Shown in pieces: positions 28,226 to 32,679 of a stretch of DNA of 64,000 bases (position 1 is the stretch's first letter; each line of letters begins with the position of its first letter). Both the position numbers and the translations under genes were made by a program. The notes under the pieces were generated by a model. That model made no database searches. It was not told the origin of the DNA and was given only the letters and a program-made list of their open reading frames with translations. The stretch comes from Amedibacillus dolichus DSM 3991 (GTDB lineage: Bacteria > Bacillota_I > Bacilli_A > Erysipelotrichales > Erysipelotrichaceae), in the NCBI RefSeq assembly GCF_000154285.1, contig NZ_DS483477.1, forward strand, positions 310,001-374,000, in the 5' to 3' direction.

Positions 28226-28234
28226 TGCTATAAT
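28226..28234 (+). promoter_or_regulatory. Extended -10 promoter of the dockerin-glucosaminidase gene
   Basis: TGCTATAAT, about 117 bases before the start codon. The transcript would begin at the foot of the leader hairpin. Confidence 0.6.
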
Positions 28235-28240
28235 TTAGAC

Positions 28241-28338
28241 GCTTTTGGAGGACAGATAGTTGGAAGGCGTTTCCAAAAGGACTCTACGCAAAGGATAGTG
28301 TTGATAAATTCGATATATGTATGAAAAGGTCTAGCAGT
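28241..28338 (+). ncRNA. Structured 5' leader of the dockerin-glucosaminidase gene (unidentified)
   Basis: CTTTTGGA (28242-28249) can pair with TCCAAAAG (28272-28279), with an alternative inner hairpin TTGGAA-GGCGT-TTCCAA (28260-28276) that excludes it. A GACTCTACGCAAAGG stretch follows. The two mutually exclusive stems directly after the start site look like a regulatory RNA. It does not match any riboswitch I know; only a faint likeness to the ACGCAAAG core of c-di-GMP-I aptamers exists. Confidence 0.35.
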
Positions 28339-28351
28339 GAGGAGAAAGTGT

Positions 28352-30229
28352 ATGAAAAAATTAGTTAGTTTTATCTGTATAGTATTTATTGTTATCGTTA
28401 GCTCTGCCTCTGTTATGAATGCACAAGATACGGAAGATATTGATATCGCTAGTATAACTCCTGTCGGACAGCCTGAACAGGACGAATATTTTTATATTTT
28501 AGATGAAAATGGAAATGTTGAATATGTTACGTATGATTCTTATGCGTATGATGAATCCTTAGACGCAAAGGAGCGTTCGGCTTTTCGAAATGCAAAATAT
28601 CAAGTAGCGAAGATTACTGGTTATACAACATATACCGAAGCGGCAACCGGCTTAGCAGGATATACACATGGTAACTCGGCGACCGATGCAGCCTATATTC
28701 AAACCAATAGTAACGGTACCGTTCGTGTGAAGCAGGCCGGTGTGGTAATGGATATACCCAAGGCAAATGTAAGTATTGTAGATTATACCGGCAGCAATGT
28801 TTCTACCTATACAACTAGCAATGGCAAGCTTTACCATAACTTTTTTTACAATCAAACGGCTAAGGCAAGTAATTGGGTAGGGTATCAACAGGGATATATG
28901 GCTTCAAATGCTACCTATTATAGTTATGATGGACATTATTTTTATACAAAATATGAAACCATGATTGATGATTATCGTAACAATACCTATCAGCATGCCA
29001 TCAACCCGAATACTCCGTATTACAGCTACTATCAATTCCTTTCACATCGTAGCAATACTGGCTTTGCGGCAAATATGTTTGACAATCGCATTATTGAGGT
29101 ACAAGGGCAAGGCACAAGTTCTAAGTTAAGAAATGCCGGTAAGGATTTTATTAGTGCTCAAAATACATACGGTGTAAATGCCGGATTGATGTGGGCAGTT
29201 TCGATCAATGAGAGTGGTTGGGGGTTAAGCCAGCTTTCCTTGGAACGTAATAATTTATTCGGTCATAAAGCATACGACAGCAATGTCGGTGCAGCAGAAC
29301 GATATAATAGTGTTTTGGATTGTGTGAATACACATGCGAAAACCTATATTTCTTCCGGTTACTTAGATCCAACAGATTATCGTTATCGCGGACCGCATTT
29401 AGGTGATAAGCAAAGTGGCATTAATGTCAAATATGCGTCTGATCCTTATTGGGGAGAAAAAGCAGCACAGCAGTTATATCTTCTTGCAGAACGAAATAAT
29501 CGTAAAGATTATGGTTCTTATAGTCTTGGCTCTGTTAATGGAAGTGCTAATATTTATAATTCTACCGGATCCTCTAAAAAACTGCTTTATACAACAGGAA
29601 GCGGTGAAAATAGAAACCTGGATAACAATATGGTTATTATTTTAGGAGAGGAAAGAGGTAGTGATGGTGTAGTGTATTATAAAATTCCATCTGATTCAGC
29701 ATTGACAGAAAACAGAGTTGCTATCAATCCTACAGGTATTTATAAGACCGGAAGAGATTATGCGTATATTAGAAAAAGTGATGTGAAGGTAGTAAGTCAA
29801 GGTTCCTCTGTATTAGATCGTTTGGGAATGCGCCAAGAGGGCAGCTATGTATTTGGTTTAAAACCGAATACAAGTGTTCAAGCATTTACACAAAATGTAA
29901 AAGCAATTGATACAAATGCTTTTGTTAATGTGAAAAATGCTTCCGGACAAGTCGTAACCTCGGGAACAATGGGAACCGGAATGACATTTACCTTAAAAGA
30001 AAATGGAGTTCTTACAACTTATACTGTTGTGATTAAAGGAGATGTAGATGGTGATGGACAAATTCGCTCCATTGACTACTCTATTGTAAAAAATGATATT
30101 TTGAATATTCGAAAGCTATCCAAAGCGTATGCGACTGCCGGTGATGTAGATGGAGATGGAAAGATTCGTTCCATTGACTATTCACTCATTAAAAATGATA
30201 TTTTGAATATTAAAGACATCGTACAGTAA
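28352..30229 (+). CDS. Secreted glucosaminidase with C-terminal dockerin
   Basis: A 625-residue exported protein. A signal peptide (about 1-27, ending VMNAQ) is followed by a Tyr/Thr-rich region of unknown fold (to about 240). The glucosaminidase (GH73-like, PF01832) domain comes next, with MWAVSINESGWGLSQLSLERNNLFG around residues 280-305 (catalytic Glu in INESGW). SH3-like repeats follow. The last about 63 residues are two dockerin repeats, each GDVDGDGxIRSIDYSxxKNDILN. It would cleave peptidoglycan glycan strands at the surface. The start is at ATG 28352, after GAGGAGA. A putative anchoring partner is encoded 16 bases downstream. Confidence 0.88.
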   Translation: MKKLVSFICIVFIVIVSSASVMNAQDTEDIDIASITPVGQPEQDEYFYILDENGNVEYVTYDSYAYDESLDAKERSAFRNAKYQVAKITGYTTYTEAATGLAGYTHGNSATDAAYIQTNSNGTVRVKQAGVVMDIPKANVSIVDYTGSNVSTYTTSNGKLYHNFFYNQTAKASNWVGYQQGYMASNATYYSYDGHYFYTKYETMIDDYRNNTYQHAINPNTPYYSYYQFLSHRSNTGFAANMFDNRIIEVQGQGTSSKLRNAGKDFISAQNTYGVNAGLMWAVSINESGWGLSQLSLERNNLFGHKAYDSNVGAAERYNSVLDCVNTHAKTYISSGYLDPTDYRYRGPHLGDKQSGINVKYASDPYWGEKAAQQLYLLAERNNRKDYGSYSLGSVNGSANIYNSTGSSKKLLYTTGSGENRNLDNNMVIILGEERGSDGVVYYKIPSDSALTENRVAINPTGIYKTGRDYAYIRKSDVKVVSQGSSVLDRLGMRQEGSYVFGLKPNTSVQAFTQNVKAIDTNAFVNVKNASGQVVTSGTMGTGMTFTLKENGVLTTYTVVIKGDVDGDGQIRSIDYSIVKNDILNIRKLSKAYATAGDVDGDGKIRSIDYSLIKNDILNIKDIVQ

Positions 30230-30245
30230 AAGAAAGGAAAGTTTT

Positions 30246-31607
30246 ATGAAAAAAAGCAAAATTTTAATAGCTTTGGTTGCGGTAATAACATTAGTTACTC
30301 CAATGCTTATACATGCTGCGATAGCTCCGGGAGCAACATTTACAGCCACGGCGAATTGTGGTATTTATGAAGGGGCAGTTCGTGTCAGCGCCAGCAATGC
30401 CACTGTAACAAGTGCAGATAACTTTTTTTGTGATCGAGGGAAGCAGTTAAGAGCTACGGCGATTGCTGGTAGTGCTGGTACTGCAAGTGTTTCTTTTACT
30501 GTTATAGATGCTACAGATACCAATGCAATGCAACTTGTTGGAAATGTTAATATCGGTGGTACAAGTGTTACAGTTGCTGCTCCATCAAATAATAATGGAG
30601 GAGGTGGGGGAGGTACACAAGTACAACAACCTAGTAAACCACAAACTCCACAAAACCAACAAAATCAACAAAATCAACAGAATCCGCAAGAAGATGTAAA
30701 TGATAAGCGTTCCGATAACAATAATTTGGCAAGCTTAGCAATTTCTTCAGGAAAGCTGACTCCTGCGTTTCATGCCGAAACAACTGAATATCGTGTGGAA
30801 TTAGCAGCTACGGTAACAAGCATCAATATTACTGCGAGTGCCGCAGACGCAAAAGCAAAAGTGAATGGTACCGGTACGAAAGCGTTAGAGCCGGGAGAAA
30901 ATAAGTTTTCCATTACGGTTACAGCAGAAAACGGTGCGGTTAAAACTTATACGATTGTAGCGGTTGTTAATGAAAAACCATTAGTTTATACAAAGTATAA
31001 TGGCAAAGATCTTGGAGTTGTTCGTAATGTGAAAGATATCAAAGCTCCTAAGGATTTTGTTGAAACGACGGTTAAGTTAGATGGTAAGGAAGTTAAAGCA
31101 TGGAAGAATGATGCTATGAAGATTACGCTTGTTTATTTGATTGATGAAAAGACAAGCGAGAAGAATTTTTATATCTATGATACAAAGAAACAAGTGGTTA
31201 CCAATATCTTTAAACCAACTGCAATTTTAGGAAATAATGTTTATCTTGTGGATATTCCTAAGGAATTACAGACAATGGAAGGCTTTCAGTATGGAAAGGT
31301 AAAGGTAGATACTACGGAGCTAATGGGGTGGACCTTTAAAGATAAAGCATTTGATAATTATGTGGTTATCTATGTGATGGACGAAGCCGGTAAGATGCAG
31401 TATTATATGTATGAAAAAACACAAAATACGCTTCAGCTTTATTCGAAAGCAGCTCCGGTTACACAAGAATCTTATGAAAAGCTAGTTAAGGATTTAGAAA
31501 ATACAAATAAGATGCAGGTTATTTGTTTAGGAGTTGCTGCTGTTTTAACAGTCGTAGCTATTGTTGCGGTCGTATTTGCGATAAAATTAAAGAAACAAGT
31601 GAAGTAA
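30246..31607 (+). CDS. Surface protein with cohesin-like and cadherin-like beta-sandwich domains, C-terminal membrane anchor
   Basis: A 453-residue protein. A signal peptide (about 1-25) is followed by a compact beta-rich domain (about 26-110; GIYEGAVRVSASN ... GSAGTASVSFTVIDATD ... GNVNIGGTSVTVA) that resembles a short cohesin-type or Ig-like module. A Gly/Gln/Asn-rich linker follows, then a cadherin-like beta-sandwich (PF12733 type, about 157-242: NLASLAISSGKLTPAF ... YTIVAVV), a further domain, and one C-terminal membrane helix (about 424-446) with a KLKKQVK tail. It is in an operon with the dockerin enzyme, suggesting it is its surface receptor. That pairing is inference. Confidence 0.7.
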   Translation: MKKSKILIALVAVITLVTPMLIHAAIAPGATFTATANCGIYEGAVRVSASNATVTSADNFFCDRGKQLRATAIAGSAGTASVSFTVIDATDTNAMQLVGNVNIGGTSVTVAAPSNNNGGGGGGTQVQQPSKPQTPQNQQNQQNQQNPQEDVNDKRSDNNNLASLAISSGKLTPAFHAETTEYRVELAATVTSINITASAADAKAKVNGTGTKALEPGENKFSITVTAENGAVKTYTIVAVVNEKPLVYTKYNGKDLGVVRNVKDIKAPKDFVETTVKLDGKEVKAWKNDAMKITLVYLIDEKTSEKNFYIYDTKKQVVTNIFKPTAILGNNVYLVDIPKELQTMEGFQYGKVKVDTTELMGWTFKDKAFDNYVVIYVMDEAGKMQYYMYEKTQNTLQLYSKAAPVTQESYEKLVKDLENTNKMQVICLGVAAVLTVVAIVAVVFAIKLKKQVK

Positions 31608-31608
31608 G

Positions 31609-31637
31609 AAAAGGGTGAGCGGATATGCTTGCCTTTT
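31609..31637 (+). terminator. Terminator of the dockerin operon
   Basis: AAAGGGTGAGC pairs with GCTTGCCTTTT (with G-U pairs) around GGATAT, followed by T. Confidence 0.75.
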
Positions 31638-31701: not shown

Positions 31702-32679
31702 ATGCCTAATTTAATCACACATAAGATTTTTGCAGAAGAAGTTTTGAAGCACATTGATAATAGAAAAATTCGTAGAATCATTGAAAATAATCTACAATTA
31801 TATGGGATTGGCAGTAATGGTCCTGATCCTTTATTTTTTTATGATGCTACTCCATGGAATCTTTTTCATGATAATTTTGTATCGCAAATTGGCAACACGT
31901 TGCATTGTGGATACGTAAATGATTTTTATATTGCAAGTTTAAAGGAAATTGATAAACAAACGCATGAATATATCAAAGAGAGAATGTTTGCTTATGTTTT
32001 TGGACATTTATGTCACTGGGCAATGGATAGTACTGCACATCCGTATATTTATTATCGTACAGGTGATTGCGTTGGTATGAGCTTGAATTATCATCATCGC
32101 TTTGAATCTGTCTTAGATGCAACAATACTGAATGTCTATCGTCAACAAACTATCAAGGAATATTATTTTCCTGATATCTGTTTATATAATCAGGAGATGC
32201 TTCAAGCTATTGCACGAATTTATGTACCTGTAGTCAAGAAAATATTTCAAATTAAACTTCCCGTTTATGCTATCCGCAAGGCATTAGATGATTGGCATAA
32301 TGCTCAAAAATGGCTATATGATCCAAAACATAGGAAAATCAATCGTTGGTTATGGTTAGAAAATTTGAAAAATCAAAAATGGCAAATGTCGGGAAATATT
32401 GTTCCTAATAAAGATGAAAATGATTTTGATGTTCTGAACTTACAGATGCAAGCATGGAAATATCCATGCGATGATGCAATCATCAGTAATCAAAGCTTTA
32501 TTGAGATTTTTGAAACAGCGATTGAGAAGGCAGTAAATGCTATTACTTGTGCATATTGTTATGATGGAAGCGATATCTCTGAAGAGCAATTGATGGATAT
32601 TTTACAAGATCGTGCTTATGATACAGGTATGCCAGACTTTCAAGAAATGAAATATTTTAATATTGTATTCGAGAATTAA
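31702..32679 (+). CDS. Zinc-dependent phospholipase C-like protein, copy 1
   Basis: A 325-residue protein of the Zn_dep_PLPC family (PF00882). The metal-ligand pattern is visible: THKIFAEEV at the N-terminus, SNGPDPLFFYD (about 38-48), GHLCHWAMDSTAHPYIYY (about 101-118) and YHHRFESVLDA (about 130-140). There is no signal peptide, so unlike clostridial alpha-toxin it should be cytoplasmic. A close paralog lies at 47089. The gene is more A/T-rich than the earlier metabolic genes. An AGGGAGATAAG ribosome site precedes the ATG. The actual substrate is unknown. Confidence 0.78.
   Translation: MPNLITHKIFAEEVLKHIDNRKIRRIIENNLQLYGIGSNGPDPLFFYDATPWNLFHDNFVSQIGNTLHCGYVNDFYIASLKEIDKQTHEYIKERMFAYVFGHLCHWAMDSTAHPYIYYRTGDCVGMSLNYHHRFESVLDATILNVYRQQTIKEYYFPDICLYNQEMLQAIARIYVPVVKKIFQIKLPVYAIRKALDDWHNAQKWLYDPKHRKINRWLWLENLKNQKWQMSGNIVPNKDENDFDVLNLQMQAWKYPCDDAIISNQSFIEIFETAIEKAVNAITCAYCYDGSDISEEQLMDILQDRAYDTGMPDFQEMKYFNIVFEN

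Follow-up and report, generated by a model that had tools for sequence, protein, structure and literature searches.

A compact receptor domain missed by annotation probably docks a dockerin-tailed glucosaminidase on the surface of Amedibacillus dolichus

The stretch analyzed here, called the window, comprises 64,000 nucleotides of Amedibacillus dolichus DSM 3991 (contig NZ_DS483477.1, positions 310,001 to 374,000) and carries two adjoining genes: one for a secreted GH73 glucosaminidase with a C-terminal dockerin, and one for a membrane protein, the anchor. We interpret the pair, with a probability of about 0.87, as a docking system of two genes, in which a compact receptor missed by annotation holds a peptidoglycan hydrolase on the surface of its producer. 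The receptor of the neighboring dockerin is very probably the N-terminal beta-sandwich of the anchor, referred to below as the N-domain. The product of the first gene would be exported and would cut peptidoglycan, as its GH73 domain with an NES-W-G glutamate region suggests, while its calcium-folded C-terminal dockerin would bind the compact sandwich at the outer end of the anchor. The C-terminal helix of the anchor would lie in the membrane, and the linker, the cadherin-like domain and a further beta domain would carry the sandwich outward, so that the enzyme stays on the producer's own surface and is not lost. The two proteins would then bind physically and in a calcium-dependent manner, and the pair would benefit the cell that carries it.

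The domain architectures agree with the initial annotation, which had described a secreted GH73-like enzyme ending in two dockerin repeats and, sixteen bases later, a gene encoding a signal peptide, a compact beta domain, a cadherin-like sandwich and a C-terminal helix. Pfam, the open reading frames (ORFs) and an AlphaFold2 model bear out both descriptions. The catalytic domain of the enzyme matches 7pj3, a putative endo-beta-N-acetylglucosaminidase of the LytB-type GH73 group, at 7.8e-17 in a PDB sequence search, and its catalytic glutamate region (INESGWG) aligns with LESNWG of that structure. The dockerin matches Dockerin_1 over all 57 model positions (1-57) at 1.3e-13 (51.4 bits, cut-off 22.9), both of its repeats fit the calcium-loop pattern D-x-D-x-D-G-x-I-x-x-x-D, and it is the sole dockerin above the Pfam cut-off in the 2.19 Mb genome. 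The model of the anchor contains a beta-sandwich at residues ~31-110 with a predicted local distance difference test (pLDDT) score of ~90, a linker at 115-149 with pLDDT <50, two more beta regions and a C-terminal helix at 407-452. The N-domain has seven strands and measures ~86 residues, slightly more than the 75-85 first estimated. The initial annotation also proposed that this domain is the receptor holding the hydrolase at the membrane, which is supported by the co-occurrence, joint loss and cassette replacement of the two partners, by separately encoded dockerins and by a read-through model.

No relative was found when the window anchor alone was scanned against the genome collection, but a profile built from 18 anchors did find relatives. 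Searched against 316 genomes of the order Erysipelotrichales, it recovered anchor relatives in 93, and 130 of the 316 contain dockerins. The initial annotation had suggested looking for conserved dockerin-hydrolase and anchor gene pairs in relatives, and such pairs are the rule: among the roughly 70 anchor neighborhoods fetched, every anchor of the order with the C-domain described below, an N-domain and readable upstream DNA (61/61) lies directly behind a dockerin-bearing gene. The lack of co-occurrence that the initial annotation had named as a refuting result is thus clearly not seen. In 59 of these anchors the dockerin ORF directly upstream was detected by a hidden Markov model, at offsets of -17 to +23 nt relative to the start of the anchor. 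The remaining two were counted as coupled by inspection, one with its dockerin at a contig edge (L100) and one with a degenerate dockerin below the cut-off (L113, Pfam 0.0032); three anchors that start at contig ends (L044, L048 and L126) were left out of the count, as was L130 with its broken anchor. In an out-of-sample set from another family of the class, obtained in a phylum-wide draw, 13/13 anchors have a dockerin gene directly upstream, at -4 to +30 nt. The neighbors of the pair vary by genus on inspection, with cell-division-like genes at L034 and L036 and ptsI/pepT-like genes in others. The conserved unit is the gene pair and not the neighborhood, because the surroundings differ between genera. 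Some relatives carry two pairs or additional dockerin enzymes, so that the word "minimal", used by the initial annotation, fits the window genome with its one pair but not all of its relatives. One such second pair (L130, G283:C7:439166-440528) has an anchor broken by a frameshift and an intact dockerin enzyme.

The cargo encoded upstream is mostly GH73, but also includes GH25 (L104, L094) and amidase (L109, L113) enzymes. One genome (G087) has two anchors with identical N-domains, of which one serves a GH73 enzyme and the other an amidase. What is constant across the cargo types is the dockerin beside the anchor. A metallo-beta-lactamase-fold protein, ComEC-like by inspection, also occurs with a C-terminal dockerin and has an anchor of this kind as its partner (L085 and L105; L042 and L046 by inspection). 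In metagenome-assembled genomes of Lachnospiraceae and Oscillospiraceae (L165, L168, L169), a cadherin-like membrane protein is likewise encoded immediately downstream of a dockerin gene, and the operon logic thus reaches beyond the class.

The two partners are also lost together. In three anchors (L050, L051 and L127) the signal peptide runs directly into the cadherin-like domain with no N-domain between them, and none has a dockerin gene upstream. The genomes of the first two (G041, G042) have no dockerin at E≤0.001, and that of the third (G068) still has an ordinary pair at another locus (L099). Read naively, the contrast of 74 coupled anchors with 3 that lack both partners gives p ~1e-5, a figure that is illustrative only, the loci being related.

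The dockerin and the N-domain are further replaced jointly. Across 57 pairs compared by global identities, N-domain similarity correlates with dockerin similarity in a partial Mantel test that controls for the C-domain of the anchor (the ~150-residue beta domain), the cadherin-like domain and the enzyme (r 0.37, with 0/3000 permutations as high); an earlier variant with local scores gave a weaker correlation (partial r 0.24, p 0.0004). Three sets of swapped operons stand out (L043 vs L045/L084, L107 vs L096, and L037 vs L083/L038), in which the bodies of enzyme and anchor share 81-95% amino acid identity, the N-domains 31-43% and the dockerins 37-49%. Where C-domain identity is ≥0.75, dockerins are ≥0.73 identical in the 17 pairs with N-domain identity ≥0.55 and ≤0.49 identical in the five with N-domain identity <0.45, and intermediate values are absent. 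A DNA comparison of L043 (Massilimicrobiota timonensis An13) with L045 (Massilimicrobiota sp. An134) shows identity dropping at the first calcium loop, from 0.93 to 0.39, and climbing back to 0.92 shortly ahead of the cadherin-like domain. The third member of this set comes from an uncultured Massilimicrobiota; the three names derive from L145, L143 and L144. L045 and L084 are 0.94-0.95 identical within the cassette and 0.84-0.86 in the flanking enzyme and anchor, as if the cassette alone had been transferred recently. This exchange of dockerin and receptor together, in a single cassette over a gene boundary, is the most unusual part of the system.

The same pattern might arise if the dockerin and the N-domain never touch and are replaced together through adjacency of their DNA, combined with diversifying selection on a surface-exposed stretch: the two lie within ~0.6-0.7 kb, and breakpoints could sit in the conserved flanks for mechanical reasons. 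Since adjacent segments could hitchhike in this way, dockerins encoded apart from the anchor serve as a test. Two genomes (G040, G045) each encode an orthologous GH25-like enzyme with no adjoining anchor; the bodies are 87% identical, the dockerins are 57% identical and differ in type as the pairs of their genomes do. The GH25 dockerin of G040 has its best match in the pair of G040 itself (0.79), and that of G045 in the G045/G070 type (0.67, vs 0.63 for the pair of G040). In a third genome (G065), the dockerin of a 978-residue protein is 87% identical to that of the genome's own pair, the next best match being 69%. Dockerins that do not adjoin an N-domain thus also follow its type in this small set. 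The 978-residue ORF (L188, G065:C10) encodes a large exported protein whose C-terminal dockerin has the type of the local pair; the ORF lies ~3 kb downstream of that pair. Large enzymes of genus g56 contain internal dockerins, which were considered as extra ligands and rejected because they belong to a different, internal type.

Contact between the two domains is also suggested by one relative (L103) in which the two genes are in frame across a single TAG, such that reading the stop codon as a residue yields a chain of dockerin, anchor signal peptide and N-domain. Folded by AlphaFold2 with 19 naturally paired rows, this chain reached a mean pLDDT of 84.7 and a predicted template modeling score (pTM) of 0.75, with 29 residues disordered. 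Independent placement of the two domains would, by arithmetic, cap pTM near the share of the larger domain (~85/184) plus linker, or ~0.46 to 0.64. The value obtained lies above this ceiling and suggests a confident relative placement of dockerin and N-domain. The model therefore suggests a confident interface in L103, as judged from global pTM and domain-size arithmetic. Together with the separate dockerins and the N-domain loss that accompanies dockerin absence, this placement makes replacement by adjacency alone highly unlikely.

Several observations weigh against docking of the enzyme on the N-domain. The loci are phylogenetically related and the counts are not independent; joint replacement is partly expected from the short distance mentioned above; only three separate dockerins are available, of which those of G040 and G065 lie within ~5 kb of the pair and that of G045 has a narrow margin; and the fold is that of the cognate pair of a relative (L103) and not of the window pair. 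One comparison looks partly one-sided: between L118 and L115 the N-domains are 0.57 identical, though the dockerins are 0.90 and the backbones 0.91 identical. These near-identical operons carry cohesin-like N-domains that diverge in the middle, a possible one-sided change. Lastly, the window genome itself has two Pfam cohesins, each within a large multidomain protein (G000:C2:91640 and 99262), and these are conceivable dockerin partners. The first belongs to a large GH31-like protein (L002, G000:C2:89906-93091) with a degenerate internal dockerin-like stretch directly before the cohesin, and the second sits in a 2048-residue frame. The dockerin might accordingly bind a canonical cohesin elsewhere in the genome, while the N-domain binds something else and the two genes are merely co-transcribed. 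Twelve genomes that have the pair, however, contain no Pfam cohesin at E≤0.01, which leaves the N-domain as the only visible receptor candidate there. The joint loss and replacement of N-domain and dockerin also speak against a canonical partner, as do the separately encoded dockerins that track the anchor type, and we regard this explanation as quite improbable.

The N-domain, which the initial annotation had labeled cohesin-like, is not directly recognizable as a cohesin. The window N-domain has no match to Pfam Cohesin (PF00963) at E≤1, a profile search of the PDB with it returned no cohesin, and Foldseek with the N-domain of a relative found generic Ig-like sandwiches and no cohesin. The dockerin half of that same relative matched the cellulosomal dockerins 1ohz/2ccl (TMt 0.94-0.95). 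With its length and seven strands, the window N-domain falls short of the nine-strand, ~140-residue jelly roll of cohesins. In several genera, the same slot of the anchor is occupied by a domain of ~120 residues with matches to type II cohesins (2y3n at 3.7e-7, 1tyj at 1.9e-6); against Pfam Cohesin these long domains reach 1.4e-5 at best, below the cut-off. Alignment of the short-type and long-type profiles with hhalign gave a probability of 93.9-95.9%, against ≤1.5% for cadherin-like and C-domain controls. In the independent set from the other family of the class, short and cohesin-like N-domains are found by inspection on one anchor backbone, with differing dockerin types. The label thus survives only indirectly, through the profile link to longer cohesin-like domains in the same slot of relatives. 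We regard the N-domain as a receptor for dockerins that acts as cohesins do and may be descended from one, and we do not class it as a cohesin.

Type I dockerins recognize their partners through positions 10 and 11 of the calcium loop. Among the pairs these positions carry the same residues in both repeats with few exceptions and change together by type (PA, SI, SM, TL, GV etc.). A recognition site that is present twice implies two faces that can bind equivalently, as in known dual-binding dockerins. Pairs with a long cohesin-like N-domain have a degenerate second repeat, with a mean repeat identity of 0.39 vs 0.70. Arginine at loop position 9, which the initial annotation had read correctly in both repeats and taken as a possible mark of a distinct binding type, is present in both repeats of only three of the 57 pairs (the window, L104 and L111). 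All three have an N-domain with the motif CG(I/V)YEG, while sister dockerins with SM or SL go with CGxIEG. Judged from these sequences, the arginine is a marker of one subtype among many and not of a separate class. The dockerin repeats could alternatively bind each other or fold onto the enzyme with no partner protein, as proposed for some internal dockerins, and dockerin-like modules within large enzymes do exist in these genomes. The pair dockerins, however, are C-terminal, and most short-type pairs have intact calcium loops in both repeats; such intramolecular binding would leave the obligate partner gene, the joint switches and the matches of separate dockerins unexplained. We consider it barely credible.

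A wider proposal is moderately probable: dockerin and mini-cohesin would together be a self-contained specificity cassette that lies across the gene boundary and is spread through recombination in the conserved flanking DNA. Gut Erysipelotrichales would then harbor many types insulated from one another, wall-cutting enzymes would dock only on their own cells, and solitary dockerin enzymes of the same genome would be retuned to follow. Such a cassette would also explain dockerins in genomes without a recognizable cohesin, and the pair would supply a partner for dockerins in the twelve genomes without an annotated one. The system extends cohesin-dockerin logic to peptidoglycan hydrolases docked on an anchor in the membrane, and it suggests a whole family of small systems for surface docking that annotation mostly misses. 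It would offer dozens of small, naturally matched and apparently non-cross-reacting pairs, and the receptor domains, at ~86 residues, would also make useful small tags for docking. The natural swaps between the isolates M. timonensis An13 and Massilimicrobiota sp. An134 open the coupling to direct tests and could show how protein-protein specificity changes in a single step.

The coordinates of all features are collected in Table 1. The initial annotation did not mention the C-domain, which lies between the cadherin-like domain and the membrane helix. This domain occurs both in Erysipelotrichales and in another family of the class and, because it is retained in anchors without a receptor domain, probably has a role of its own. 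A phmmer search of the PDB with the window anchor gave chance matches only, and Foldseek with the whole anchor was uninformative, matching only strings of beta-sandwiches. Attachment of the anchor by sortase was ruled out by the C-terminus, which has no LPXTG. The gene 3' of the pair (31702-32679) resembles zinc-dependent phospholipase C-like proteins by inspection (MPNLITHKIFAEEV...).

Table 1. Features of the enzyme-anchor gene pair, in window positions (CDS, coding sequence)
Feature	Position	Strand	Remarks
Secreted GH73 glucosaminidase with C-terminal dockerin, CDS	28352..30229	+	ATG 28352 after AGGAG; alternative GTG 28337
Enzyme signal peptide	28352..28423	+	by inspection
GH73 / Glucosaminidase domain (PF01832)	29141..29470	+	Pfam 1.8e-16; best PDB sequence match 7pj3
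Type I dockerin (PF00404)	30035..30205	+	two near-identical repeats, 21/24 residues identical (repeat identity 0.88)
Calcium loop 1	30041..30076	+	D-V-D-G-D-G-Q-I-R-S-I-D; Arg at position 9, Ser-Ile at 10-11
Calcium loop 2	30143..30178	+	D-V-D-G-D-G-K-I-R-S-I-D; Arg at position 9, Ser-Ile at 10-11
Membrane anchor protein, CDS, 453 residues	30246..31607	+	starts 16 nt after enzyme stop
Anchor signal peptide	30246..30317	+	by inspection; helix 4-16 in AlphaFold2 model
N-terminal beta-sandwich, putative dockerin receptor ("mini-cohesin")	30318..30578	+	two cysteines, CG-Y-EG ... FFCDRG motif
Flexible linker rich in Gly/Gln/Asn/Pro	30579..30716	+	pLDDT <50 in model
Cadherin-like beta-sandwich domain (PF12733)	30729..30959	+	Pfam 2.5e-11; 44.3 bits vs cut-off 24.2
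Conserved beta-rich C-domain, ~150 residues	30978..31445	+	without Pfam or NCBIfam match; defines anchor family
C-terminal membrane helix, then short basic tail	31512..31583	+	no LPXTG motif
Stretch equivalent to the exchangeable cassette of relatives: dockerin, 16-nt gap, anchor signal peptide, N-domain and linker	30035..30716	+	seen in relatives, not directly in window genome

No description of this pair or of cassette exchange was found in a literature search limited to openly licensed PMC text, and the nearest known systems resemble it in part. With the cellulosomal cohesin-dockerin system (type I of C. thermocellum; 1ohz/2ccl) it shares a type I dockerin on a secreted enzyme, as recognized by Pfam, PDB and Foldseek searches, a beta-sandwich receptor on a surface protein, and variable loop positions 10-11 repeated in both dockerin halves. 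Unlike the cellulosome, where a scaffoldin carries an array of cohesins, the window system has one receptor per anchor, shorter than the usual ~140 residues and not recognized as a cohesin. Its cargo consists mostly of peptidoglycan hydrolases (GH73, GH25, amidase) or a metallo-beta-lactamase-fold protein, and receptor and ligand adjoin across a gene boundary and move as one cassette. Identity with a cellulosome was rejected on the single receptor, the lack of a scaffoldin and the one dockerin above the cut-off, which sits on a peptidoglycan hydrolase. Dockerins and cohesins outside cellulose degradation are found in gut bacteria in the C. perfringens glycosidases and in the Limousia mucinolysome, a non-cellulosomal multi-enzyme complex with large glycosidases (PMC12997984). 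Those form multi-enzyme complexes, whereas a dedicated two-gene operon with a single membrane-anchored receptor is seen here. The cohesin-cadherin-like membrane proteins behind dockerin enzymes (L053 in the order; L165, L168 and L169) follow the same operon logic, and the N-domain of L053 is of the longer cohesin-like type; they differ in being larger, with several cadherin-like repeats and a different or absent C-domain. LytB-type GH73 glucosaminidases (7pj3), finally, share the catalytic domain, but the window enzyme would be retained at the surface by its dockerin and not by choline-binding or other wall-binding repeats.

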